A stretch of DNA of 64,000 nucleotides, taken from the NCBI GenBank assembly GCA_022710935.1, contig JAKLFY010000001.1, positions 186,001 to 250,000 on the forward strand. Reading direction: 5' to 3'. Position numbers and translations under genes: made by a program. Positions 5,145 to 53,182 of this stretch are shown here, piece after piece. How positions within the stretch are numbered: position 1 is the stretch's first letter; every line of letters begins with the position of its first letter. This DNA is from Verrucomicrobiota bacterium (lineage in GTDB: Bacteria > Verrucomicrobiota > Verrucomicrobiia > Limisphaerales > J093). The notes under the pieces are model-generated. The model worked only from the letters and a program-made list of their open reading frames with translations, ran no database searches and was not told the origin of the DNA.

Positions 5145-5485
5145 ATCGGTCTTGTCCGCGAAGGCACCTGCCCTCTCCATATGTTTACGCAGGGTGTCGC
5201 GTGAAGTAACAAGAAAAGTGGAAGAAGGTTGATGTTCGTTGGTGATCGAAGCTTGCTTCGCCGTTCACGCCTCACGGATCACGGTGCAGGATGCCCTGCT
5301 GATCGGCGTGACGCACCGCTTCCGCCACCGTCTTCATCCACGCCGCGCCCCGTGTTCAAATTGAGATTTCAGATCTCAAATCTGAGATCACCTGCGCGGG
5401 GTTCCGCCCAAAAGGGACGCAGAGGCACAGACCCTTAGGCCGCAACCAAGTCGCCGCTTGGCTGTCGAGGCAGCCCGTGTCATAC
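5145..5485. other. Gap between secreted repeat protein and rhamnosidase
   Basis: The gap holds one AT-rich tract (5357-5389) containing the palindrome AGATCTCAAATCT. I see no gene and no clear promoter. Divergent transcription means both neighbours' promoters should lie here. Confidence 0.5.
5357..5389 (+). repeat. AT-rich tract, intergenic copy
   Basis: This tract of AAATTGAGATTTCAGATCTC type has the same composition and word structure as the tracts in the cas4 remnant, here in an intergenic region. Confidence 0.75.
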
Positions 5486-5556
5486 TAGCCCGCATGGTTC
5501 ATCGAGTTGTGACTGCGGCGAAGCCGAAAACTCTCAAATGCGGACTACTGCGGGCT
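5486..5556. repeat. CTAG-ended palindromic element, B-type (copy 1)
   Basis: The element starts TAGCCCGCAT and ends ATGCGG...TGCGGGCT, with GCGAAGCCGAAA inside. The interior closely matches the copy at 53065-53137. It overlaps the start of the rhamnosidase gene and supplies its ATG. Confidence 0.8.
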
Positions 5557-8472
5557 CGAAGCCTGGCCGTACTTGCGGCGGTGTGCGTTTGCTTTCTGTC
5601 GTCGATTCCCGGGCATGGGGCCGAAACGGCCGCCATCCAGCCTGTCGCACTGCGGACGGAGTTCTTGTCCAATCCCCAGGGACTGGACGCTCGGCAGCCG
5701 CGGCTGAGCTGGCAGATCGCGTCCGGGGCGCGCGGGCAGAAGCAGACCGGGTATCGCGTTGTGGTTGCGAGCACGAGCGAGAAACTCGATGCCGAGGATG
5801 GGGACCTCTGGGACTCGGGGCGCGTCGCGAGCAGTGAAACAGTCAACCTCGTCTATGCCGGACGACCGCTGACCTCGCGGCAGACCTGTTTCTGGAAGGT
5901 CAAGGTGTGGGACGCCGAGGGCAAGCCCGGCGATTGGAGCCGCCCGGCCCGCTGGACCATGGGCTTGCTCGAAGGGTCCGACTGGCAGGCCCATTGGATC
6001 TCCTTCAAAGACACGTCTCCCCTGCACGCGGCGCGCGACCGGCTTTTTCTGCCGCCGGCGCGGCATTACCGAAGGGCCTTCAATCTCGAGCGCGAGGTGC
6101 GGCGGGCGACGCTTTACGGTTCAGCGCTCGGGTTGGCCGAGTATCATCTCAACGGCCAGCGCGTGGGCGACGCGTATTTCGAGCCCGGGTGGGCCGACTA
6201 CCGACGCCGCGTCCACTATCGCACCCATGACGTGACTTCCCAGATCCGCCGCGGCCCCAACCGCATCGGCGCCATTGTCGCCGACGGCTGGTATGCGGGG
6301 TACGTGGGGTATGGCTTGCTGGTGGGGTACGGTCCGAACAAAGCCGGCCGCTGTTTTTACGGGAAGACGCCCGCACTCCTGGCTCAACTTGAAATCGAAT
6401 ACGCCGACGGCTCGCGCGAAACGATCGGGACCGACGCCTCGTGGCAGGTGAGCGGCGATGGGCCGATTCGCGAAGCCGACCTGATCATGGGCGAGGCGTA
6501 CGATGCGCGTCGGGAAGATGCCGGCTGGTGCTCCGCCAGCCCGGCCGCGGCGGGCGGGGGGGCAGCCGCCTCGGCCTGGACTTGGGAACAGGCCATTCGG
6601 GCTGAGGACAACGGGAGCACGAAGGCCCTGTTTTCGGACACATTGGGCAATCGGGAGGTCGAGTTGGGGTTCCAGCGTCCGCCGCGTCTCCAATTCTACG
6701 CCGCACCGCCCATCCGCGTCACGCAGGCGTTGCCGGCCCTGCGCCGCAGCGAACCGGAACCCGGTGTGTTCATCTTCGATTTCGGGCAGAACTTTGCCGG
6801 CATTGTCCGGATCGGCGTCCAAGGGCCGGCCGGGGCGACGGTGCGGCTGCGATTCGGCGAGATGCTGCATGCGGATGGCCGGCTGATGACCGAGAACCTG
6901 CGCCGCGCCCGCGCGACGGATTTCTACACGCTGCGGGGCGATCCGCGGGGCGAGACCTGGCAGCCGCGCTTCACCTATCATGGATTTCAGTATGTCGAGG
7001 TGAGGGGGTTGGCCGAGGCGCCCGGTTTGGACTCCGTGACCGGGTTGGTGCTGCACAACGACACGCCGCTGGCGGGCGAGTTTGCCTGTTCGGACGAGGT
7101 GATGACGCGTTTCTGGAAGAACACCCAATGGACCCAGCGCGCCAACTTCATCGAGATGCCCACCGACTGCCCCCAGCGCGACGAGCGGCTCGGCTGGATG
7201 GGCGACGCCCAAATCTATGCGGCCACCGCCTGTTTCAACGCCGATGTCGCCGCGTTCTTCACCAAATGGCTCGATGACGTCGACGAGGCCCAGCGCGATT
7301 TCGGTCCATACCCCGATTACTGCCCCTACCCCATGGCCCATGGCGCTCCGGGACAAACCTGGGGAACGGCCTGGACCGACGCGGGGATCATCTGCCCCTG
7401 GACCATGTGGATGGCCTACGGCGACACGCGCGTCATCGAACGTCATTGGGCCTCGATGACGCGGTTCATGGACTGGCGCAAGCAACGGGCGCCGGATCTG
7501 CGGGGGCGCAAGGACGGCAACACGTGGGGCGACTGGCTCAACGTGAACGAGGAAACGCCGATCGAGATGATCGATGCCGCCTATTTCGTCCACGACGCCC
7601 AGTTGATGGCCGAGATGGCCGGTGCGATTGGCCGGACCGCCGAGTCACAGGCCTATCGCGATCTGCACAAGCGGCTGGCCGCGCAATTCGCCAGCGACTC
7701 CCTGCGTCCGGACGGCACCCTCGAGGTCGACACGCAAACCGCCTATGTGTTAGCCGCCCGCCTGGCGGGCATCCCGGTTACTCGGGGCACGGGGATTGTG
7801 ACGCACCTGGCCGACAAGATCGCCAAGAACGAGCACCGCATGGCCACGGGCTTTCTGGGGACGAAGCACCTGCTCCCGGCCCTGACTGAGGGCGGCTACG
7901 ACGACCTGGCCGCGCGCCTGTTCCAGAGCCGGCGGTTCCCGTCCTGGGGCTACGAGGTGGTCAACGGGGCTACGACCGTCTGGGAGCGCTGGGACAGCTA
8001 CACCAAGGAACACGGCTTCAACGGTGCAAGCGGCAATCAGAATGCCGCGATGAACAGCTTCAGCCATTACGCCTTCGGCGCCGTCATGGAATGGGCCTTC
8101 CGCAACCTTGCCGGCATCAACACCGAGGGGCCGGGTTACAGCCGGATTGTGATTCACCCGCGCCCGCCGGCGCCCGGCAGCAATCCCGAACAAACACCCA
8201 TTCATTGGGTGAAAGCCGAGTACCACAGCATTCGCGGGCTGATCCGGTCGGAATGGCGTCGGGACGCCGACACCTTCGAATTGCGGGTCAGCATCCCTGG
8301 GAACACGACTGCGACGGTGTCTTTGCCGGCGTTGAACACGGACTCGATCCGCGAGAGCGGTCAGCCGCTGGCAGCCGCCCAGGGGGTGCGGCAGTTGCGT
8401 CAGGAAGACGGTCGAACGATTCTGGCGGTGGAATCCGGGGATTACCGATTCACGTCGAGCCTGTCGCGCTAG
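5494..8472 (+). CDS. Alpha-L-rhamnosidase, GH78, secreted
   Basis: This 992-residue enzyme should remove terminal alpha-L-rhamnose from plant or algal glycans outside the cytoplasm. The start at 5494 (ATG) leaves a basic N-region and the hydrophobic stretch SLAVLAAVCVCFLSSIPG, a signal peptide. An upstream in-frame TTG at 5458 is possible. GH78 architecture follows: N-terminal beta domains (Fn3-like opening PRLSWQIASG), a carbohydrate-binding-like beta domain, then the (alpha/alpha)6 catalytic barrel. The barrel holds the family motif DCPQRDERLGWMGDAQ near residue 560 (acid residues) and TTVWERWDSYT near residue 830 (proposed general base Glu), followed by a C-terminal beta domain. Its stop codon TAG is the first base of a repeat element. 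An L-rhamnose mutarotase is encoded at 52730. Confidence 0.93.
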   Translation: MVHRVVTAAKPKTLKCGLLRARSLAVLAAVCVCFLSSIPGHGAETAAIQPVALRTEFLSNPQGLDARQPRLSWQIASGARGQKQTGYRVVVASTSEKLDAEDGDLWDSGRVASSETVNLVYAGRPLTSRQTCFWKVKVWDAEGKPGDWSRPARWTMGLLEGSDWQAHWISFKDTSPLHAARDRLFLPPARHYRRAFNLEREVRRATLYGSALGLAEYHLNGQRVGDAYFEPGWADYRRRVHYRTHDVTSQIRRGPNRIGAIVADGWYAGYVGYGLLVGYGPNKAGRCFYGKTPALLAQLEIEYADGSRETIGTDASWQVSGDGPIREADLIMGEAYDARREDAGWCSASPAAAGGGAAASAWTWEQAIRAEDNGSTKALFSDTLGNREVELGFQRPPRLQFYAAPPIRVTQALPALRRSEPEPGVFIFDFGQNFAGIVRIGVQGPAGATVRLRFGEMLHADGRLMTENLRRARATDFYTLRGDPRGETWQPRFTYHGFQYVEVRGLAEAPGLDSVTGLVLHNDTPLAGEFACSDEVMTRFWKNTQWTQRANFIEMPTDCPQRDERLGWMGDAQIYAATACFNADVAAFFTKWLDDVDEAQRDFGPYPDYCPYPMAHGAPGQTWGTAWTDAGIICPWTMWMAYGDTRVIERHWASMTRFMDWRKQRAPDLRGRKDGNTWGDWLNVNEETPIEMIDAAYFVHDAQLMAEMAGAIGRTAESQAYRDLHKRLAAQFASDSLRPDGTLEVDTQTAYVLAARLAGIPVTRGTGIVTHLADKIAKNEHRMATGFLGTKHLLPALTEGGYDDLAARLFQSRRFPSWGYEVVNGATTVWERWDSYTKEHGFNGASGNQNAAMNSFSHYAFGAVMEWAFRNLAGINTEGPGYSRIVIHPRPPAPGSNPEQTPIHWVKAEYHSIRGLIRSEWRRDADTFELRVSIPGNTTATVSLPALNTDSIRESGQPLAAAQGVRQLRQEDGRTILAVESGDYRFTSSLSR

Positions 8473-8543
8473 CCCGCATTTCTCACCAGTCGTGCTCGCC
8501 GCGAAGCCGATGTGAGCGAAAGAGGCTGCCATGCGTGCCAGCC
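8470..8543. repeat. CTAG-ended palindromic element, B-type (copy 2)
   Basis: The element opens TAGCCCGCATTTCTCACCA, with GCGAAGCCGATGTGA inside and a weak complementary end (ATGCGTGCCAGCC). The TAG at 8470-8472 is the stop codon of the rhamnosidase gene. Confidence 0.75.
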
Positions 8544-8737
8544 AAGGCTATTTCACACGTTTGGCGAGGAACCGTAACCGGGTTCGTTTCGGAAGCAAAT
8601 TCGGGCAAATTCAAGTCTTGCCAACCGCGCGGGTTGCAGTCTACGCTCCCCGCTCTTTTGAATCCGCCGATGCGGATGACGCCGGGTCCGCTCGCGATTT
8701 GCGGGGCGGGGTCGGGCGAAGAATCATACACGATATT

Positions 8738-14227: not shown

Positions 14228-14559
14228 GTGCGGCGAAGGTTTTGATTCAACGCCCTCATGAAGTCAACCGCCGATCGAAACCGTGTCGAAGGCGCAAACC
14301 GCGAGTGTCTTTGCGCCGCGTGGGGGCACGCGGCCTACAACGCCGATGTCTGCTTCTTTGCAGGCCGGGTCCCCTGACCCGGCGACCTCACCGATGTCTG
14401 TCCTCGCGCCGCGTGGGGGCACGCGGCCTACAACGCCGATGTCTGCTTCTTTGCAGGCCGGGTCGCCTGACCCGGCGACCGCGGCGCCGCGGCGCATTTG
14501 GCGCTGCGGTTTGGCGCTTGTCAGGCTGACGACAACCGGTATGATGCCCCGCAAATACA
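14228..14559. other. Gap filled mainly by tandem double-hairpin repeats
   Basis: About 180 of the 332 bases are two copies of a 93-bp unit (14302-14480). The rest shows no gene. Promoters for the divergent genes on either side would have to lie in the flanks. Confidence 0.5.
14302..14480. repeat. Double-hairpin repeat, two 93-bp tandem copies
   Basis: Each unit has a perfect 8-bp hairpin GCCGCGTG-GGGG-CACGCGGC (14315-14334 and 14408-14427) followed by CTACAACGCCGATGTCTG. It then has a second hairpin GCCGGGT...ACCCGGC with TGCA/TGTA before it. The same unit recurs at 27425-27715, 30838-30915 and 37670-37735. Confidence 0.93.
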
Positions 14560-15474: not shown

Positions 15475-16497
15475 ATGACAAACATTGGCATCGTTGGCCT
15501 GGGTTTCATGGGCCTGACTCACATCAAAGCGTACCGACAACTGCCCGGCGCCAACATCGTCGCCATCTGCGACGCCGTCCGGTTGCCGGAAGACGGAAAC
15601 CTCACGCCGGTCGCGGGCAACATCAGCACGGCGGACCAGATCAAGTTCGACATGTCCGTGGTCAAGGGCTACCGGGACTATGCCGAGATGCTGGCCAATC
15701 CGGACGTGCAACTGGTGGATATCTGCCTGCCCACGCCGTTGCACGCCGATGTGGCCATCGCGGCTCTTCGGGCGAACAAGCATGTGATCTGCGAGAAACC
15801 TCTCGCCCGCTCGTCGTCCGTCTGCCGCCAGATCCTCGACGCGGCGAAGTCCTCCAAGGGCTATTTCATGCCGGCCCATTGCATCCGCTTCTGGCCCGAG
15901 TGGGCCTGGGTCAAACAGGCCATCTCGGACAACCGCTACGGCAAAGTGCTTGCCGCCCGATTGCGGCGGGTTTCGGAACCGCCGGCCTGGAGCAAGGCCA
16001 CTTACCTCAAGGGCGAAGAGTCAGGCGGCGCCCTGCTCGACCTGCACATCCACGACACCGACTTCGTCCAGTTCTGCTTCGGACGCCCGCGTCGGGTCTT
16101 CTCCCAGGGATTCGTCCGCATCAGCGGCGCGATCGATCACGTCGTCACGCAGTACGAGGTGGACTGCGGCGCGGCGGTGTCGGCCGAGGGGACGTGGGTG
16201 ATGCATGCGGGACACGGGTTCAACATGGCCTACACCATCGTGTTCGAAAACGCCACCGCCGACTACGACCTCACGCGCGGACCGAATGCCCTCAAGCTGT
16301 TCCAGAACGACAAGCCGGCTCAGACCCTGAGCTGCGAAGGCGGCGACGGATACGTCGGCGAACTGCGCCACATGCTCGAAAGCATCGAGGCCGGACGCCC
16401 GCCGTCCATCGTGACCGGCGAAGACGCGCTGAATGCCGTGGCCATCTGCGAAGCCGAGGAGAAATCGATCAAGACCAGGCAGTTGGTCACCGTCTAG
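15475..16497 (+). CDS. Gfo/Idh/MocA-family oxidoreductase, cytoplasmic
   Basis: This 340-residue NAD(P)-dependent dehydrogenase has the Rossmann motif GIVGLGFMGLTHIKAY at its start, LVDICLPTPLHADVA, the family motif HVICEKPLARS (catalytic Lys) and GGALLDLHIHDTDFVQF (active-site His/Asp). The start at 15475 (MTNIGIVGLG) is preferred over a TTG at 15436 because it gives the canonical N-terminus. It probably works with the preceding epimerase on an oxidised sugar intermediate. The TAG stop is part of a repeat element. Confidence 0.92.
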   Translation: MTNIGIVGLGFMGLTHIKAYRQLPGANIVAICDAVRLPEDGNLTPVAGNISTADQIKFDMSVVKGYRDYAEMLANPDVQLVDICLPTPLHADVAIAALRANKHVICEKPLARSSSVCRQILDAAKSSKGYFMPAHCIRFWPEWAWVKQAISDNRYGKVLAARLRRVSEPPAWSKATYLKGEESGGALLDLHIHDTDFVQFCFGRPRRVFSQGFVRISGAIDHVVTQYEVDCGAAVSAEGTWVMHAGHGFNMAYTIVFENATADYDLTRGPNALKLFQNDKPAQTLSCEGGDGYVGELRHMLESIEAGRPPSIVTGEDALNAVAICEAEEKSIKTRQLVTV

Positions 16498-16540
16498 CCC
16501 GGATCGATCACAGGCTGCGCGCTGAACCAGATCCGGGCTA
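16494..16540. repeat. CTAG-ended palindromic element, A-type (copy 1)
   Basis: This 47-bp element has complementary ends TAGCCCGGATC and GATCCGGGCTA. Its left end holds the stop codon of the oxidoreductase. Its right CTA is shared with the B-type element that follows. Confidence 0.85.
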
Positions 16541-16610
16541 GCCTGCATGTTGACTTCTCTTGAGGACTCCGGCTTGGCGGTGGCAAGAAGTGGTGAGAAA
16601 TGCAGGCTGG
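16539..16610. repeat. CTAG-ended palindromic element, B-type (copy 3)
   Basis: The element starts TAGCCTGCAT and ends GGTGAGAAATGCAGGCTGG, with CTCCGGCTTGGC inside. It is the reverse-orientation form of copies such as 45093-45166. The T-for-C change in the left arm is matched by an A-for-G change in the right arm, so pairing is preserved. Confidence 0.88.
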
Positions 16611-22509: not shown

Positions 22510-22853
22510 CAAAGTCCCATTCAAATCGCGGCGGATGTTAGGGAGGGTGGGAAGGCGGTCAAGTCGCAAGCGGAAGTTCTCACGTTGCAGCAGTCTCATT
22601 CTGGCTGAGCACCGATTGAGAACCGACTTGCGTCGGGCACGGACCCAGGCCTCTCGGGATTTCGGGATCCAAAGCCGGACGCCAGCCGACGCTTCGCACG
22701 CAAGATGGGTGCGGGTCAGACAGACATGCGACTTAGCCCGCATAGCAGACACCATGCGAAGTCTGATCGCCATGTGCACCGACGGGGTGCAGGAAATATG
22801 CGGGTTAGAGGCTACCGGCGGGCGGTGATCGGCGACTCAGGGTCTGCGCAATC
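22510..22853. other. 344-bp gap between carA and lnt
   Basis: The gap contains one B-type palindromic element (22733-22808). The remainder shows no gene. carA's promoter should lie in the left part. Confidence 0.5.
22733..22808. repeat. CTAG-ended palindromic element, B-type (copy 4)
   Basis: The element begins TTAGCCCGCATAGCAGACAC and ends ATATGCGGGTTAG. The interior GCGAAGTCTGATCGCCATG resembles the GCGAAGCCGATGTCAT core of other copies. Confidence 0.82.
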
Positions 22854-24578
22854 CTATACGCAGAAGGAGCGCCGGCGCACCCATGTTCCGGCAATCGCAC
22901 ACACCGTGATCGCCGCACAGCTCCAGCCGAACAGATCGCCGTGGCGCTGGTAGAAGGTCGGCGCGCGGCGGGTGTCATGGGAAAGGAGCGGGATCCGGAA
23001 CACTTTGAAGCCGGCCCCGTACACGTCCCTGGGCCCGTTGAAACCGACATCGCGAAGGCGTCCGAGGGCGTCGATCCAACAGGTCAGGCCGTTATTCGTG
23101 CAACGGACCAGGGGAACGCCGTTTTCGACGGCCCGGAAGGCGGCGTTGGCGGCCTGCTGCCATTGGGCCGCGCTTTCTCCGAACCATCCGTTGTTTGTGA
23201 GATTGAGCAGGAAGTCGGTGTCGGCATCCACGGCGTCGCGTGCGCTCGAGGCAAACACGTCTTCGAAACAAATCAGCGGCCCCAGACGCGCCCCCGTCCG
23301 ACCGAGCTGGAACCAGACCGGGCCGGGCCCGGGCGTGATACTGCAGTCGATCGGTGTGAGGTATTTGGTGAATGGCAGCCAGCGTTCGAGCGGGATGTAC
23401 TCGCCAAAAATCACCAGGCGCCGTTTGCGATAGGTGGCCGCGAATTGGCCGTCCGTGTCGAAGAGAAAGGCGCTGTTGAAATAGCGATACTCCGGCTCGC
23501 CCTGAGCATCCGGACTCACCTCAGCATCTTCGGCCCCAAACACCATCCAAACACGGTGCGATGCGATCAGATTCGTCAGGGCCCGATAATGCTCTTCCTC
23601 GAAGCTTGGCAGCGAGGCCTCGGGCCAGACCAGCAGGTCGGGCTCGGTCGCCAGGGCCAGCCGGGTCAGCTCCATGATTCGATTGAAACGATTCGTTGAT
23701 TCCCGCGGATCGAAAATGAGCCGCTGCGGGATGCTCGGCTGAACCACGGCCACACGCAGTTCCGACTCAGCCTGCTGGGGCGTCACGAGCCGGGATCCGC
23801 CGTAACCGGTAATCGCGACCACCGCCAGGAGCGGAAGGGCCAGGTCGGACGCCAGCGTGACGCGGAACGCGACCATCGGGGACGGCGATGCGATCGGGGC
23901 TCGGCGGGCGATGCGCCGCGCCACACAGGCACTGGCGCAGAGCAGCGCGACGGAACACCAGGCGACGATGAAGGACACGCCGTGGACGCCCGTGACCGAA
24001 GCGATCTGAATCAGCGGCAGGGTCTGGTGTTGGGAAACGCCCAGGAAGTTCCACGGGAAACCGGTCAGGAACCGGCCCACAACCATCTCGAGAGCCACCC
24101 ACGCGCCAGCGCATGCCAGGCACCAGAGCGTTCGCTGACGCCAGGTCAGATCGACCAGCGGCTCGAGTGTCATGGCGTGCCCGGGGAGCCGCGCCGATTC
24201 GGCCCCGCGCCCCGGCGATTCCACAGTGGTTTCCAGGTGTGGCGCGCGCGATCGGATCAGTGCAGTCGTGCAGAGCCAAACCCAGGCGGCCGGATAGAGG
24301 GCCAGATAGCCGCTGAGGGCCAGCCAGCCTGCAACCGCCCCGGCAGGAAACGGGATGTGCAGCAGCCAGTGGAGGGAGACGAGATGATGGACCAGTCCGC
24401 CCAGGTATCCGAAAGCGAATGCGTGTCGTCCGTTGGCGCCCAATCCAGCGAGCAGAAGGCACCCCGGCCCGATCCAGGCGAGGCTCGATATGTCGAAGGT
24501 GGGAAACGACAGCGCGAGCATCAGCCCCGCCAGCACGGCGAAGCCGGCTCGAAAGCTGAACAGGAATCTTTTCACCAC
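22854..24578 (-). CDS. lnt: Apolipoprotein N-acyltransferase
   Basis: This inner-membrane enzyme of about 574 residues adds the third acyl chain to lipoproteins. Several N-terminal membrane segments (FAVLAGLMLALSFPTFDIS and following) precede a nitrilase-fold domain holding the triad: Glu in LLVWPEASLPSFEEEHY, Lys in ATYRKRRLVIFGEYIP and Cys in GPLICFEDVF. The final part has LLNLTNNGWFGESAAQWQQ and VRCTNNGLTCWID. No ATG fits, and I place the start at one of two adjacent GTG codons (24575 or 24578). The longer open frame to 24872 reads through a repeat element and the neighbouring gene's tail. Confidence 0.92.
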   Translation of the reverse strand: MVKRFLFSFRAGFAVLAGLMLALSFPTFDISSLAWIGPGCLLLAGLGANGRHAFAFGYLGGLVHHLVSLHWLLHIPFPAGAVAGWLALSGYLALYPAAWVWLCTTALIRSRAPHLETTVESPGRGAESARLPGHAMTLEPLVDLTWRQRTLWCLACAGAWVALEMVVGRFLTGFPWNFLGVSQHQTLPLIQIASVTGVHGVSFIVAWCSVALLCASACVARRIARRAPIASPSPMVAFRVTLASDLALPLLAVVAITGYGGSRLVTPQQAESELRVAVVQPSIPQRLIFDPRESTNRFNRIMELTRLALATEPDLLVWPEASLPSFEEEHYRALTNLIASHRVWMVFGAEDAEVSPDAQGEPEYRYFNSAFLFDTDGQFAATYRKRRLVIFGEYIPLERWLPFTKYLTPIDCSITPGPGPVWFQLGRTGARLGPLICFEDVFASSARDAVDADTDFLLNLTNNGWFGESAAQWQQAANAAFRAVENGVPLVRCTNNGLTCWIDALGRLRDVGFNGPRDVYGAGFKVFRIPLLSHDTRRAPTFYQRHGDLFGWSCAAITVCAIAGTWVRRRSFCV

Positions 24579-24722
24579 CGGAAAGATGACAACGAAATCC
24601 GGGCTCTGGCAAAACCGCGCCCGCACAGGGACACGCGAGGTTCGGAGCGTTTCCGAAACCTCGCGAGTGCGGCGACACTCTGTTGGCCGGCTCCATCCCT
24701 CCACTCGGGCGCGGTTTGCCTT

Positions 24723-24796
24723 CTCGCCCGCATGGGTCCCTATTCTGGAGTTCCCGGCTTCGCCGTGATCACACGTCCATGAAACATGCGGGCTAG
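24723..24796. repeat. CTAG-ended palindromic element, B-type (copy 5)
   Basis: The element runs from CGCCCGCATGGGTCC to ACATGCGGGCTAG, with CCCGGCTTCGCCGTGATCA inside. The interior nearly matches the copy at 31019-31080. The terminal CTA is the complement of the TAG stop of the minus-strand gene that begins at 25749. Confidence 0.88.
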
Positions 24797-27303: not shown

Positions 27304-27722
27304 GAACCGAGATTAACGGCCAGGCCAGGACACTCGCCAAGCGCAAAATGATCATGGTCGCAAATCCTCGGCGAATCGCCCTTGCACCGCGTGCGGCCCA
27401 CACCATGAGCATCAACGCCTGTTGCTGTAGGCCGGGTGCCCTCACCCGGCGTCCGCACCGGTGTCTGTCCTCGCGCCGCGTGGGGGCACGCGGCCTACAA
27501 CGCGCTGGCCGGATCCCCCCGACCCGGCGCCTGCACCGGTGTCTGTCCTCGCGCCGCGTGGGGGCACGCGGCCTACAACGCGCTGGCCGGATCCCCCCGA
27601 CCCGGCGTCCGCACCGGTGTCTGTCCTCGCGCCGCGTGGGGGCACGCGGCCTACAACGCGCTGGCCGGATCCCCCCGACCCGGCGCCTGCACCGATGTCC
27701 GTCCTCGCGCCGCGGGCATTCG
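27304..27722. other. 419-bp gap with tandem double-hairpin array
   Basis: Apart from ~120 bp just upstream of argG, which must contain its promoter, the gap is filled by the 78-bp repeat array. No gene is present. Confidence 0.6.
27425..27715. repeat. Double-hairpin repeat, 78-bp tandem array
   Basis: The GCCGCGTG hairpin starts at 27475, 27553 and 27631, exactly 78 bp apart, and a partial fourth begins at 27709. Each is followed by CTACAACGCGCTGGCCGGAT and an arm of GACCCGGCG. The first unit has the form TGTAGGCCGGGTGCCCTCAC, as in the 14.3-kb and 30.8-kb copies. Copies are nearly identical, differing mainly at GTCC/GCCT beside CGCACCGGTG, so the expansion is recent. Confidence 0.95.
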
Positions 27723-29891
27723 TCAGGGCGGGTTGGCCGCATCAACCGAAGAAAGCGGCTTGCTGTCTGCCAACTGACGCAGGATAAACTGCCGCCTGTT
27801 GGCGAGTTGGTCGCGAAACGACTCGATATCGCCGCGAAACCGCCTCAGGGCGAGCCCGGTGTCCCGACGCTCGATCGAGGCCCTGTAAACAATCTCCGGC
27901 TCGATCCGTTGTTCGAGCGCCGTGATGGCCGGCCCGAAGGCCTGCTGCGTGAACGCCGTGTCGCACAGCTCGTGAAGCCGCGCCAGGAAATGCTCGCGAA
28001 AGTGCGGCTCAGCCAGGAGCGGACCGGAAAACCACCCGGGCGGGCGCCACCAGGGCGCGCCTGCGTCCGGCCACCCGCCGAACCAGGAGCGGCGCGCCGG
28101 TTTGTCGCCAGCCATGCCATAGGTGAGCGGCATCTCGTACCAATCGTACGCAGGCGACGCACCGTCGTAATCCCCCCAGGTCTTGTCCTGGTCCCAGGGA
28201 ATGATCTGCCATTTCCCGCCCGGTCTCGGATCGTGATAGGCGTAGTAATTGTTGAAGAAGCCGTCCCAGTTCTGAATGCACATGCTGACGGCGTAGTAGC
28301 CGGCCAGTTCGTCGACGTCGAAATGCTGCCGGATGAAATCCCATCGGGCCAGGCCCTCGGTCTTGCGCAGGCCCTCGATGACGTCAAGCAAGTCGGCGTG
28401 GCCGGTGTCGGGATTCGTCTTTTTCTCGTGCTGGCCGGCAACGCCGTCGCCGTACCAGAGCAGCTTGTAGAGATTGCCATCCGGATCCTGACCCAGGCGG
28501 CGGAAAAAGGCGCGATTCGGTTGCTCGACCACCAGGTGGCAACCCAGGGCGTGTTGGTCCATCCACAGCCGCACGTGATCGGTGGCCGGAGACGGCACGC
28601 CAGCGCGGCGATAGAGCTCGAAAGCCAACGGTTCGGACAAGAGATAGCGTGGCGATCCTTCGAGAATCAGGTTGACGGCACGCAATCCCTGCCAGGGCCG
28701 ATCGGGTTGGAACTCGATCTTGTACCCGCCCTTCCGGCGACGCACCCGCACGTGATCGAACACAAGCAGATCGGATTCACCGGGCGGCAGAATCACCGCC
28801 GCGCAACTCCAATCCATGCGCGTCGCCCAGGGAGGCCGGGCGGACTCTTCGGCGAGCGCCTGAACCCGCCGCGCGACACCGGGCTTCTGGATGCGCCCGA
28901 ACGTGAGGAGCCTCAGGAACGGGATCCGGGCGGCATTGGTGTTGATGTGCGTTGCGCAGGAGAATGTGGGGTGCAGATCGGTCGCGGATGGACAGTGGCG
29001 CACGGCCCCGGAGACGCTCCGAGCCTCGACGACAAACCGGATCAGGCAGCTCTCCGGCTGCCCAGGGATGGCTCCCACATAGCGCGCGCCGTCGGCGGCC
29101 TCCTGGTCCACGATCAGAGGCGCCTCTCCCTTCGCGATCGGGCTGTCGGGCGACCATGCCTCCCAGTGGAGCGCGACGCGCGCAACACCCGCGTCGTCTG
29201 TCACCCTGGCCGATACGCCAATCGGCTGGCCGGGCACGGGGCGGTCGTGGCACACCTCGGAAACCCGGGGCAGTGGGACGGGCGAATCGCACGAATTGCG
29301 CCGACCGGGCGTGCCTGCAAAGGCCCCACCGGCGCCGATCCCGGATGCGCCCCAGTTGGCCGGGTCGATTGAGGCCGCTTCGGCGCAAATCCGTTCGAGC
29401 GACGAGCCGTGACCATCGGCGGCGACCGGCCAGGGAGGGCGGTCGGCGTAGTGGACGGCGTCGCGAATCTCGCCCTGGGAATCGGCCAACTCGATGCGCT
29501 CCCCTTTTCGGCTCAGTGAGCCGGTGAACGTGCCGATCACATTTGTCGAATCCCCGTGGCACGCCCTGAACGCCGCCATGTTCCGGCACACGACCCGGTA
29601 ACCGCCAGGCGGTATCGAGGCGCCGCGCGGAAAGGCGAAATCGACCCCGCCCCGCACGGCCCATCGGGAGAGATCGACGGCAGCATCGCCGGGGTTGTGG
29701 ATCTCGATGAACTGGAGGTCGTCCTGGTCGCCAAACGGATGGTACATGACCTCGCTCAAAACCACCCCGGGTTGCGCGGCCCCTGGCCCGGATTTCTCAC
29801 CACTTGAAGGAGTCATCTGAGATCCGGGACGGGCGACACACAACAACGCGCAGCAAACCACGAGCAGAGCCATGAGCGGGTTGGCGCGCAT
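27723..29891 (-). CDS. Secreted lamin-tail and CotH-kinase domain protein
   Basis: This 722-residue protein starts at 29891 (MRANPLMALLVVCCALLCVA, a signal peptide). A lamin-tail domain follows (VVLSEVMYHPFGDQDDLQFIEIHNPGDAAVDLSRW). The large second domain is CotH-like: KGGYKIEFQPDRPW, LNLILEGSPRYLLSEPLAFELYRR, LGCHLVVEQPNRAFFRR, YYAVSMCIQNWDGFFNNYYAYHD and WQIIPWDQDKTWGDYD. CotH proteins are atypical protein kinases, while in this phylum such combinations are abundant surface proteins of unknown role. The start codon lies in the end of a repeat element. Confidence 0.88.
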   Translation of the reverse strand: MRANPLMALLVVCCALLCVARPGSQMTPSSGEKSGPGAAQPGVVLSEVMYHPFGDQDDLQFIEIHNPGDAAVDLSRWAVRGGVDFAFPRGASIPPGGYRVVCRNMAAFRACHGDSTNVIGTFTGSLSRKGERIELADSQGEIRDAVHYADRPPWPVAADGHGSSLERICAEAASIDPANWGASGIGAGGAFAGTPGRRNSCDSPVPLPRVSEVCHDRPVPGQPIGVSARVTDDAGVARVALHWEAWSPDSPIAKGEAPLIVDQEAADGARYVGAIPGQPESCLIRFVVEARSVSGAVRHCPSATDLHPTFSCATHINTNAARIPFLRLLTFGRIQKPGVARRVQALAEESARPPWATRMDWSCAAVILPPGESDLLVFDHVRVRRRKGGYKIEFQPDRPWQGLRAVNLILEGSPRYLLSEPLAFELYRRAGVPSPATDHVRLWMDQHALGCHLVVEQPNRAFFRRLGQDPDGNLYKLLWYGDGVAGQHEKKTNPDTGHADLLDVIEGLRKTEGLARWDFIRQHFDVDELAGYYAVSMCIQNWDGFFNNYYAYHDPRPGGKWQIIPWDQDKTWGDYDGASPAYDWYEMPLTYGMAGDKPARRSWFGGWPDAGAPWWRPPGWFSGPLLAEPHFREHFLARLHELCDTAFTQQAFGPAITALEQRIEPEIVYRASIERRDTGLALRRFRGDIESFRDQLANRRQFILRQLADSKPLSSVDAANPP

Positions 29892-30692: not shown

Positions 30693-30837
30693 GATGCCAG
30701 ATAACAGCCTGCGAGGGCGCCGCGACGGCTGTGCCCCCGGCGATGTTCGTATAGACAGAACCCGGAACCAAACGTTTTGTTTCGGCCGGAGCGCGAGATT
30801 TCGGCACGCAGTTCTGGCTTGGCGTCCAGGGTCTTGA

Positions 30838-30915
30838 CGCCGCGTGAGTGCACGCGGCCTACAACATCGATGTCTGCCGCTTTGTAGGCCGGGTCCCCCG
30901 ACCCGGCGCTCTGAC
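30838..30915. repeat. Double-hairpin repeat, single copy
   Basis: GCCGCGTGAGTGCACGCGGC and TGTAGGCCGGGT...ACCCGGCG are joined by CTACAACATCGATGTCTGC. The first loop is AGTG here instead of GGGG, and the stem is intact. Confidence 0.92.
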
Positions 30916-31018
30916 GGTTCTCAAGACGAGAATTGCTGGATTTCGGCAGCGACGACTTGACCGAACCGCCCAGGGCGGTTAGGCCTAAGCCCGGATCCGG
31001 CGCGGTCTTGCTTTTCCA

Positions 31019-31085
31019 GCCCGCATGGGTCCACGTCCTGGAGTAACCGGCTTCGCCGTGACGTCAACTCCATGAGCAACACGCG
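31019..31085. repeat. CTAG-type palindromic element, B-type (copy 7)
   Basis: The element begins AGCCCGCATGGGTCCACGTC and contains CCGGCTTCGCCGTGACG and CTCCATGAGCAACACGCGAG. The interior matches the copy at 24723-24796. The right end has decayed. Confidence 0.8.
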
Positions 31086-32777: not shown

Positions 32778-32852
32778 TTAGCCCGCATTTCTCACCAACT
32801 TTTGATGTCATCTGACCGGTCAGCGTCACATTTCACCTGAAATGCGGGTTAG
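32778..32852. repeat. CTAG-type palindromic element, B-type (copy 8)
   Basis: The ends TTAGCCCGCATTT and AAATGCGGGTTAG are near-perfect complements. The interior is TTTGATGTCATCTGACCGGT. It lies in the gap between converging genes. Confidence 0.9.
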
Positions 32853-37508: not shown

Positions 37509-37825
37509 CTGCGGTCAACCTGCGCTCAGTCACCGTGATGGTGGCGACGAGTTGGACGTTTGTGAACTCATTTGTGAGCGGTTCATGGATCTTCGGAACA
37601 CCGCCCCTTGAATCCGACCCCATTGCCTGCTTCCAGTGGTGGCGGTTGTCGGTGGAAATCGAGATCACGCCCCGTGGGGGCACGCGGCCTACAGCGGGAG
37701 CAGGCCTGTGCCCTCACCGGGCGGCGAGCACCGACAACAACCAGATGCGCCGGATTTCTCGTGCCGGGGCTTCCGTGCCGGGGTTTCTTGCGGTCCGGCC
37801 CGACTATGCTAATGTGCATGGCACT
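37509..37825. other. 317-bp gap with partial double-hairpin repeat
   Basis: The only structure I see is a repeat copy at 37670-37735. The region must also hold the promoter of one or both divergent neighbours. Confidence 0.5.
37670..37735. repeat. Double-hairpin repeat, decayed copy
   Basis: CCCCGTGGGGGCACGCGGCC followed by TACAGCGGGAG and CCCTCACCGGGCGG. The left stem arm has changed (GCCCCGTG), so the first hairpin is weakened. Confidence 0.75.
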
Positions 37826-44151: not shown

Positions 44152-45096
44152 ATGTGGACCATTTGTCGCAAGGAACTGGCTGACCACTTCGGGTCGATCC
44201 GATTCCTGATTCTCTTCTGCCTCATCCTGATGGTGGCGCTGGTGTCCACCTACATGGCCGCCACGCACGTCCGGGAAGCTCTCGACGGCGCCAAGCCGTC
44301 CCAGGTGTTCCTCCTCCTGTTCACCACGCCCGGCAAGTTCTTCTCACTCGTCCAGTTCATCGCGCTCTTCGGACCGCTCCTCGGGATCATCATGGGTTTC
44401 GATGCGATCAACCGGGAGCGACAACACCGGACCCTGGGCAAGCTGGTGTCCCAGCCCATCTACCGCGACGCCATCGTCAACGGCAAGTTTCTCGCCGGCG
44501 TCCTGACCATCAGCGTCGCCCTCCTGAGCATGATGCTCCTGTTGACCGGGCTGGGCCTGATGACAGTCGGCGTCGTCCCTGGCATCGAGGAGATCGGGCG
44601 TCTGGCCATCTATCTCCTGGTCAGCATCGCCTACGTGTCGTTTTGGCTCGGCTTGGCCATCCTCTTCTCGGTCCTGTTCAGGTCGCTGGCGACCTCCGCG
44701 CTCGCGGCCGTGGCGCTTTGGATCTTCTCCGCGTTCTTTGTCGGGTTCCTCGCCGATTTGGCGGCTGACGCCCTCCGGCCCATCCGCAATCCGCGCGATC
44801 CCGAGGAGATCGTCGCCAACCGCCGTTTTGCGGACGCCTCGAGCCTCGCCTCCCCCGCCGTTCTCTATTCGCAGGCCACCTCGACAATCCTCGATCCGTA
44901 CCGACGCACCCGCAGCAACCTGGTCCTGACCGGTCCGATGGAACGGCTCTCGCTCGAACGCTTCGAAAGGCCCCTGCCCCTTGACCAATCCATCCTGGTC
45001 GTCTGGCCCTACCTGACCCTCCTGGCCGCCATGACGCTGGTCTGTTTCGGACTCTCCTACGTCGTCTTTATGCGCCAGGAAATACGGTCCGTCTAG
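44152..45096 (+). CDS. ABC-2 type permease
   Basis: This 314-residue membrane protein has six hydrophobic segments, the first at FLILFCLILMVALVSTYMAA and the last at YLTLLAAMTLVCFGLSYVVF. It has a large outer loop after the first segment and the ABC-2 motif MGFDAINRERQHRTLGKLVSQPI. With the ATPase it forms the transporter. The TAG stop at 45094 belongs to a CTAG-ended repeat element. Confidence 0.93.
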   Translation: MWTICRKELADHFGSIRFLILFCLILMVALVSTYMAATHVREALDGAKPSQVFLLLFTTPGKFFSLVQFIALFGPLLGIIMGFDAINRERQHRTLGKLVSQPIYRDAIVNGKFLAGVLTISVALLSMMLLLTGLGLMTVGVVPGIEEIGRLAIYLLVSIAYVSFWLGLAILFSVLFRSLATSALAAVALWIFSAFFVGFLADLAADALRPIRNPRDPEEIVANRRFADASSLASPAVLYSQATSTILDPYRRTRSNLVLTGPMERLSLERFERPLPLDQSILVVWPYLTLLAAMTLVCFGLSYVVFMRQEIRSV

Positions 45097-45166
45097 CGCG
45101 CATTTCTCACCAACTTCTGAAGCACGCGGAGCCGATGTCATCGAAAGGTGCACTCATCCGCGCTAG
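45093..45166. repeat. CTAG-ended palindromic element, B-type (copy 9)
   Basis: CTAGCGCGCATTTCTCACCA opens the element and CATCCGCGCTAG closes it, with GCGGAGCCGATGTCAT inside. The C-to-G change in the left arm is mirrored in the right arm. The TAG at 45094-45096 is the permease stop codon. Confidence 0.9.
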
Positions 45167-52733: not shown

Positions 52734-53068
52734 AACGCTATGGCATGGTTCTGGGGCTCAGGCCCGAGAAAGTGGACGAATACAAGAAGTTGCACGCCGC
52801 CGTCTGGCCCGACGTGCTCAGGATGATCGCGGATTGCCACATCCGAAACTACTCGATCTACCTGCGACGACTCGACGACGGACAGCACTATCTGTTCAGC
52901 TACTTCGAGTACACGGGCGACGACTTTGCGGCGGACATGGCGAAGATGGCGGCGGATTCGACGACCCAGCGATGGTGGTCTTTTTGCGAGCCCTGCCAGA
53001 AACCGCTCGCCGATCGCGCCCCCGGCGAATGGTGGTCAGCGATGGAGGAAGTCTTTCACACAGACTAG
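52730..53068 (+). CDS. rhaM: L-rhamnose mutarotase
   Basis: This 112-residue protein of the RhaM family interconverts alpha and beta anomers of L-rhamnose in the cytoplasm. Motifs: RYGMVLGLRPEKVDEYKKLHAAVWPDVL (catalytic His22), NYSIYLRRLDDGQHYLFSYFEY, STTQRWWSFCEPCQ (Trp pair) and WSAMEEVFHTD. The ATG overlaps the ubiD stop (ATGA), so they are coupled. The TAG stop at 53066 opens a repeat element. It fits with the rhamnosidase at 5494. Confidence 0.93.
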   Translation: MKRYGMVLGLRPEKVDEYKKLHAAVWPDVLRMIADCHIRNYSIYLRRLDDGQHYLFSYFEYTGDDFAADMAKMAADSTTQRWWSFCEPCQKPLADRAPGEWWSAMEEVFHTD

Positions 53069-53137
53069 CCTGCATTTCTGACCACTATTTGCCAGCGCGA
53101 AGCCGAAACCTCAACCATGCGGACCGCTGCGGGCTAG
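53065..53137. repeat. CTAG-ended palindromic element, B-type (copy 10)
   Basis: CTAGCCTGCATTTCTGACCA opens it and GCTGCGGGCTAG closes it, with GCGCGAAGCCGAAACCTCAA inside. It matches the copy at 5486-5556. The left CTAG holds the rhaM stop and the right CTAG is shared with an A-type element. Confidence 0.9.
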
Positions 53138-53182
53138 CCCGGAAATGAGACCGCGCGAAGCCTTCTGATATATCCGGGCTGG
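53134..53182. repeat. CTAG-ended palindromic element, A-type (copy 2)
   Basis: CTAGCCCGGAAAT at one end and ATATCCGGGCTGG at the other, 49 bp in all. It shares CTAG with the preceding B-type element, the reverse of the order seen at 16494-16610. Confidence 0.85.

Follow-up and report, generated by a model that had tools for sequence, protein, structure and literature searches.

BIMEs are assembled from GTAG-tagged REPs, whose presumed mobilisers are RAYT (Y1) transposases, and SMAG is the name of one type of GTAG-tagged repeat. Insertion of the IS200/IS605 type is not known to make a target duplication. In excerpts of the published literature, GTAG repeats are reported in PVC bacteria (PMC3733652), and the eukaryotic transposon piggyBac is described as inserting at TTAA and excising without a footprint, so that one tetramer is restored (PMC7351741). 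The bacterial IS1380 family is a distant relative of piggyBac and, in the available portions of two accounts, serves as its prokaryotic outgroup (PMC10813416, PMC10140906).

The window considered here is the whole stretch of DNA that was analysed, 64,000 nucleotides long (G000:C1:186001-250000), in the 7.52-Mb draft genome G000. Together with 49 stretches of 20 kb, it forms a sample of 1.044 Mb (~14% of the genome); 40 of these stretches were systematic, and nine were added for facing contigs of G001 or for holding known copies. G001 belongs to the same genus, was sampled over 0.596 Mb and is ~88–95% identical to G000 across aligned stretches. The stretches L060/L059 (G000:C194) are 97–100% identical to L168/L169/L162/L126 (G001:C130, C53), against 88–95% in most aligned regions, and may represent one contig binned twice or a recent exchange.

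CTAG-bounded elements and their chains

The A, B and C elements are terminal-inverted-repeat units of the form CTAG-CCYGSAT...ATSCRGG-CTAG, 46–75 bp long, without a gene and divided into at least 10 subfamilies. They thereby show the features of MITEs: terminal inverted repeats, short length, absence of coding sequence and multiple copies. A search with ten subfamily profiles (B1–B5, ~72 bp; A1–A3, ~46 bp; C1 and C2, ~48 bp) gave 105 elements in the 1.044-Mb sample of G000 and 53 in the 0.596 Mb sampled from G001. With no more than one mismatch, TAGCCYGSAT ends formed 44 pairs in 864 kb and none in either of two scrambled controls. The 394 end tetramers of 197 elements include CTAG (122), CCAG (34), CTGG (31), TTAG (30) and CTAA (28), most of the non-CTAG forms being a single transition away from CTAG. 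The tetramer itself is rare: 137 copies were counted in 864 kb, ~20-fold below the 2801 expected from base composition and below the 571 of a Markov model, and detected element ends hold about a third of the CTAG in the 1.044-Mb sample (53 of 170). The two tetramers of an element agreed as direct repeats in 10 of 168 cases and as inverted repeats in 16 of 168, where shuffles expect 11.8 and 12.3. Such pairs being no better as direct than as inverted or shuffled ones, the argument for a target duplication is carried by the empty sites and the IS1380 copies described below.

The sequence-only reading had described A- and B-type elements sharing a CTAG in both orders, and both chains were confirmed. 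An A1 element with CTAG on both sides occupies 16494..16541 on the plus strand (CTAGCCCGGAT...ATCCGGGCTAG, 48 bp counting both tetramers) and is also present in G001; the element's left TAG serves the upstream frame (...KTRQLVTV*) as its in-frame stop codon. Its right CTAG, at 16538-16541, is at the same time the left tetramer of a B1 element (16538..16610, plus strand, CTAG/CTGG, CTAGCCTGCAT...ATGCAGGCTGG), which is inserted there and is not found in G001. At 53065-53182 the order is reversed. A B element with a B1-like left half and a B2-like right half (53065..53137, plus strand, CTAG/CTAG, CTAGCCTGCAT...CTGCGGGCTAG) has its right CTAG (53134-53137) in common with an A-type element (53134..53182, plus strand, CTAG/CTGG, CTAGCCCGGAA...ATCCGGGCTGG), which was recognised by end pairing and missed by the profile search. 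The order carries little information, because the ends are nearly their own reverse complements and A-B equals B-A on the opposite strand.

The third proposed chain, at 30986..31085 on the minus strand, does join half an A element to a B2 element, but the joint is CGGCGCGGTCTTGCTTTTCC and not CTAG. Comparison with full A-K-B composites identifies this piece as a remnant of a core, K, and the site is a deletion derivative of such a composite without a CTAG junction. Core K is ~120 bp long and contains the inverted pair GGCGCGGTTTTGC/GCAAAACCGCGCC. Complete composites, A-K-B or C-K-B and ~240 bp long, are present in both G000 and G001 and, in diverged form, in G004 of another genus. Examples lie in the window at 24569-24796 and in L086, L088, L089, L095, L104, L116 and L121; the one in the window is a C1-K-B2 composite (24569..24796, minus strand; C1 24569-24603, K between, B2 24728-24791, CTAG 24793-24796). 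In these composites core K pairs one A-type with one B-type end, and the outer modules vary independently around a core that is kept in the other genus too.

Further elements on the plus strand of the window are a solitary B2 (5485..5558), a solitary B3 between TTAG and TTAG (22733..22808), a C2 with a degenerate right end (29783..29832) and a B5 with CTAG on both sides, whose left TAG closes a 315-codon upstream open frame (45093..45166). A B5 element (8469-8541, CTAG/CCAG) is followed by a degenerate A2 (together 8469..8590, plus strand), where G001 has 21 unrelated bases. At 17-2415, repeat units of the GTCGCCCCGGTGTTCGCACCGGGGCGCGGATTGAAAC type, 71–72 bases apart, form a tandem array that presumably is a CRISPR array.

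The chains are real and non-random; the explanation that fits them best is nested insertion of MITEs that target CTAG. Thirteen pairs of detected elements lie at most 12 bp apart, where random placement expects 0.13; this count omits hits 53070/53092, which are one element split in two. Junctions were also sought as a core end, a YTRR-type tetramer and a core start, with three control sets of tetramers. At no more than one mismatch, 7 were found in G000 against 0, 1 and 1 in the controls, and 3 in G001 against 0, 0 and 0. The excess is smaller at two mismatches (18 against 4, 8 and 8 in G000; 9 against 3, 10 and 3 in G001), so that it is clean in the strict count only. A chance origin of the chains is ruled out by the end-pair and junction controls. 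A-type elements do stand alone: for 14 of 21, the nearest other element detected is over 400 bp away, and the same is true of 42 of 73 B-type elements. The independence that the sequence-only reading had set against its own proposal was thus found in one respect, most copies being solitary, but not in the other, shared junctions being clearly in excess.

Empty and swapped sites in a sister genome

Mapping of insertion polymorphism between close relatives, as the sequence-only reading had suggested, gave 44 rows (24 from G000 and 20 from G001, some sites appearing from both sides). Ten rows, five in each direction, were set aside as lying on 100% identical contigs (C194 versus C130/C53), and in several others, among them L190:11914, L059:5342, L072:3349, window 29787, L178:238 and L174, the other genome was unrelated or unclear, so that they support neither reading. 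Six sites among the 44 rows are occupied in one genome and empty, with a single tetramer, in the other. At 16538, G001 has the A element without the B (GGG-CTAG-[B]-CTGG-TTGG versus GGG-CCGG-TTGG). At 32778..32852 (plus strand), a B4 element lies between TTAG and TTAG in G000, and G001 is empty, with equal flank length and one TTCG. The remaining sites are L073:9059 (CTGG/CTGG in G000, empty in G001), L186:15405 (an element in G000, a single CTAG in G001), G001 L180:2767 (an element in G001, a single TTAG in G000) and G001 L178:1246 (CCAG/CCAG in G001, a single CCAG in G000). L073:9059 and L186:15405 are less clean, their left flanks having diverged near the element. The empty sites begin and end at the tetramer, which supports the earlier suggestion that the CTAG end bounds the mobile unit. 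Since one tetramer is kept, what moves is the interior together with a single tetramer, and a 4-bp target duplication is the best reading of CTAG (YTAR). The direction of the individual events is presumed: the empty sites may be deletions instead of the pre-insertion state. A different kind of insert, of 65 bp and not of the A/B type, lies right after a TAG stop at L072:7430-7496 in G000 and is not present in G001.

The greatest interest of the A/B system lies in its in-place swaps. Five distinct orthologous sites, with flanks 88–96% identical, hold different elements in the two genomes: L191:16441 (B2 versus B3), L191:4097 (B4 versus B1 plus A), L073:4747 (A1 versus B1), L101/L122 (A-K-B2 versus half A-B1) and window 24569, where G000 has C1-K and G001 has B3, the B2 being kept in both. 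At L060:13668, B3 occurs in both genomes in opposite orientations. Matches of the same family in the same place include L009/L120 (B1), the B2 at window 24728, the A1 at 16494 and L172:18848 (B2); at L067 both genomes have B3, and G001 has an extra A-K. The site L191:16441 adjoins a further CTAG-bounded repeat of ~77 bp, with ends CTAGAATCCTTGACC...GGTCAAGGATTCTAG, which occurs at L058:121-197, L191:16363-16438, L194:13825, L170:5929 and L198:9393 and shares a CCAG with the B element at L191:16438.

We consider it probable that the A, B and C elements are MITEs which duplicate a 4-bp YTAR target, with chains as nested insertions and an inferred transposase of the IS1380 family. Insertion would duplicate the target, mostly CTAG, leaving a CTAG at both ends into which a further element could enter; the common CTAG of an A-B chain would then be one arrival's target duplication and no special joint. 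Because CTAG is rare, about one in three of its sites is an element end, and such ends are hit again; if new insertions took CTAG sites at random, ~31% would land on element ends, so this rarity suffices for chaining. If the elements were excised precisely, as piggyBac is, one tetramer would be restored, and a neighbouring insertion followed by excision could leave orthologous sites with different elements. A swap would accordingly begin with insertion beside an old copy and end with the precise loss of that copy, the A-B chain being the intermediate; this order of events is inferred.

The swaps could instead reflect recombination in place and no transposition: gene conversion, or a site-specific recombinase that works at the short inverted ends, would exchange or invert modules at fixed sites bounded by CTAG. 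The five sites with different subfamilies and the one inverted site, all between closely similar flanks, agree with this, as does L191:16441, where the outer tetramers (CCAG and CTAG) are the same in both genomes and the 66-bp interior differs. We nevertheless regard it as unlikely: the clean empty sites show gain or loss of whole units, the swapped elements are identical for only ~10 bp per end, and insertion plus excision requires no extra enzyme. Under nested MITE insertion, it is possible, if still rather doubtful, that modules are exchanged genome-wide at fixed pads, seamless excision and insertion of the IS1380 type replacing hairpin modules in place. If so, CTAG would be nearly purged, its remaining copies, many of them stop codons, would be re-usable pads, and related species would have pads in common but not elements.

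Gene context bears on a further alternative, in which the elements are structured RNAs or terminator-like hairpins selected at gene ends and CTAG is a stop codon after a C. Half of the intact TAG ends (31 of 62) terminate an upstream frame with 150 or more open codons, compared with 4 of 62 and 13 of 62 in the other two frames and 108 of 488 among the remaining CTAG half-sites. The same placement is, however, also expected if insertion is harmless there, as it would be because the target copy restores the TAG, and this harmlessness may be why such sites survive. With interiors, and even subfamilies, varying between orthologous sites, and sites that can be empty, selected hairpins are a very improbable explanation; a search of Rfam at the gathering threshold gave no match in six sources (the window and five loci).

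Candidate transposases

The mobiliser of the A/B/C elements is probably an IS1380-family (piggyBac-related) transposase, to judge by the ends. Intact IS1380 copies elsewhere have ATTTCTCACC ends with duplications of CTAG, TTAG or CTAA. Clean ends with ATTTCTCAC were found in seven distinct copies (three in G108, three in G124 and one in Nannocystis); the search demanded identical flanking tetramers, and all seven are YTAR (CTAG, TTAG and CTAA), the same target duplication as that of the A/B/C elements. Copies in two genomes of the same class have SCCATTTCTCACCA-type ends between TTAG/TTAG, CTAG/CTAG (four copies) and CTAA/CTAA. In Nannocystis poenicansa FL3 the copy spans 1758 bp, with CTAG-YCCGGATTTCTCACCACGG at each end and a PF13701 frame that looks frameshifted, and a same-order copy (G150) has CCCGGATATTTCAC ends adjoining TTAA and CCAG. 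Most other IS1380 loci examined lacked clean ends between identical tetramers; several of them are fragments that lie at the end of a contig. B4, C1 and one end each of B1 and B5 match the IS1380 ends (TTTCTCACC); the ends of A1, B2 and B3 have CCCGSAT in common with them and match the inner TTTCTCACC weakly, with a weak TTTCAC. The same chaining is seen at L379:316-2205 (G108, another genus), where the right CTAG of a full IS1380 copy is shared with a ~184-bp MITE.

In G000, PF13701 has a single, partial match (C187:64348), with TTAA-CCCGGACTTCTCACC 5′ of the ORF. An intact IS1380 gene was found in neither G000 nor G001, and the A/B/C elements have a PF13701 transposase neither within nor beside them. 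In the class as a whole, 27 of 236 genomes match PF13701 at E 1e-40 or better. Within the same order, a long-range DNA search aimed at autonomous copies matched 3 of 58 genomes and yielded no transposon.

The end pattern CTAGCCYGSATTTCTCACC was searched in named genomes and viral contigs, and matched at least 118 stretches of the former, in many phyla, and 5 of the latter. Among the matches listed, paired ends in the 123 loci are mostly 54–250 bp apart, with peaks at 184–186 and 246–251 bp. Twelve intervals between far-spaced ends in other species were read; a transposase was present only in L318, the others holding ordinary genes between two separate MITEs or being bounded by chance ends. In the viral-collection contigs L338, L340, L341 and L342, a MITE end lies ~105–125 bases from the contig end, in L342 at both ends; these are possibly repeats that broke assemblies.

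Other transposase families have ends that do not match: IS701-type DDE_5 (PF13546; two weak matches) and DDE_Tnp_1 (PF01609, IS4/IS5 type; 14 matches, seven each in G000 and G001, with the loci read). The likeness to BIMEs drawn by the sequence-only reading is not supported either. It is very hard to maintain that A and B are REP/BIME-like repeats in which CTAG replaces the GTAG tag and which RAYT (Y1, HUH) transposases move in the form of single-stranded hairpins: the genome does have 12 Y1_Tnp matches and the window does have GTAG-tagged REPIN-like repeats, but both ends carry CTAG as the tag, in place of GTAG/GGAG at one hairpin end, none of the 10 Y1_Tnp loci examined is bounded by A/B ends, and the empty sites imply a duplicated tetramer, unlike insertion of the IS200/IS605 type. 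The GTAG-tagged repeats (GTAGGCCGCGTGCCCCCACGCGGC paired with GTAGGCCGGGT...) lie apart from the CTAG elements, at 14306-14491, 27428-27714, 30830-30911 and 37665-37696 of the window. Inserts of ~130–150 bp that resemble them differ between G000 and G001.

Comparison with described systems

The CTAG chaining and in-place swapping look new, MITEs as a kind being already known; a search of the open-access literature, in which sources were available in part, returned no description of chaining at CTAG and none of IS1380 MITEs. The elements offer a bacterial, genome-scale case of piggyBac-like target use, in which insertion duplicates a palindromic tetramer and loss of the element apparently restores the single copy. 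They also suggest a simple reason for BIME-like chaining: where every insertion copies a rare target, elements pile up. As CTAGCCYGSATTTCTCACC occurs in many phyla, the same explanation may fit many unnamed bacterial repeats. No published account of seamless excision by IS1380 was found in the literature search; with two close genomes that differ by in-place swaps, the question can be tested directly.

With REPs, BIMEs and REPINs, the elements have in common that they are short, palindromic, high-copy repeats with modular chaining; those repeats differ in carrying their GTAG tag at one end, in their link to RAYTs and in the absence of a target duplication. SMAG-type and other GTAG-tagged repeats likewise start with TAGCC and have a hairpin form, but have an outer G on one side, where A and B have an outer C on both. 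As in piggyBac, a 4-bp palindromic target is duplicated, TTAA there and CTAG here; piggyBac is eukaryotic and long, and seamless excision of the bacterial elements is a presumption. Compared with IS1380 (DDE_Tnp_1_4, PF13701) and its non-autonomous derivatives, the A/B/C elements are short (composites included) and gene-less, with their many subfamilies, and IS1247, of the same family, is listed with a 5-bp duplication in the available part of one source (PMC3281130). The likeness to IS1380 lies in ends of the form CC(S)SGATTTCTCACC adjoining CTAG, TTAG or CTAA, in the 4-bp duplications and in the truncated family member of G000, which has an end of the A/B/C type.
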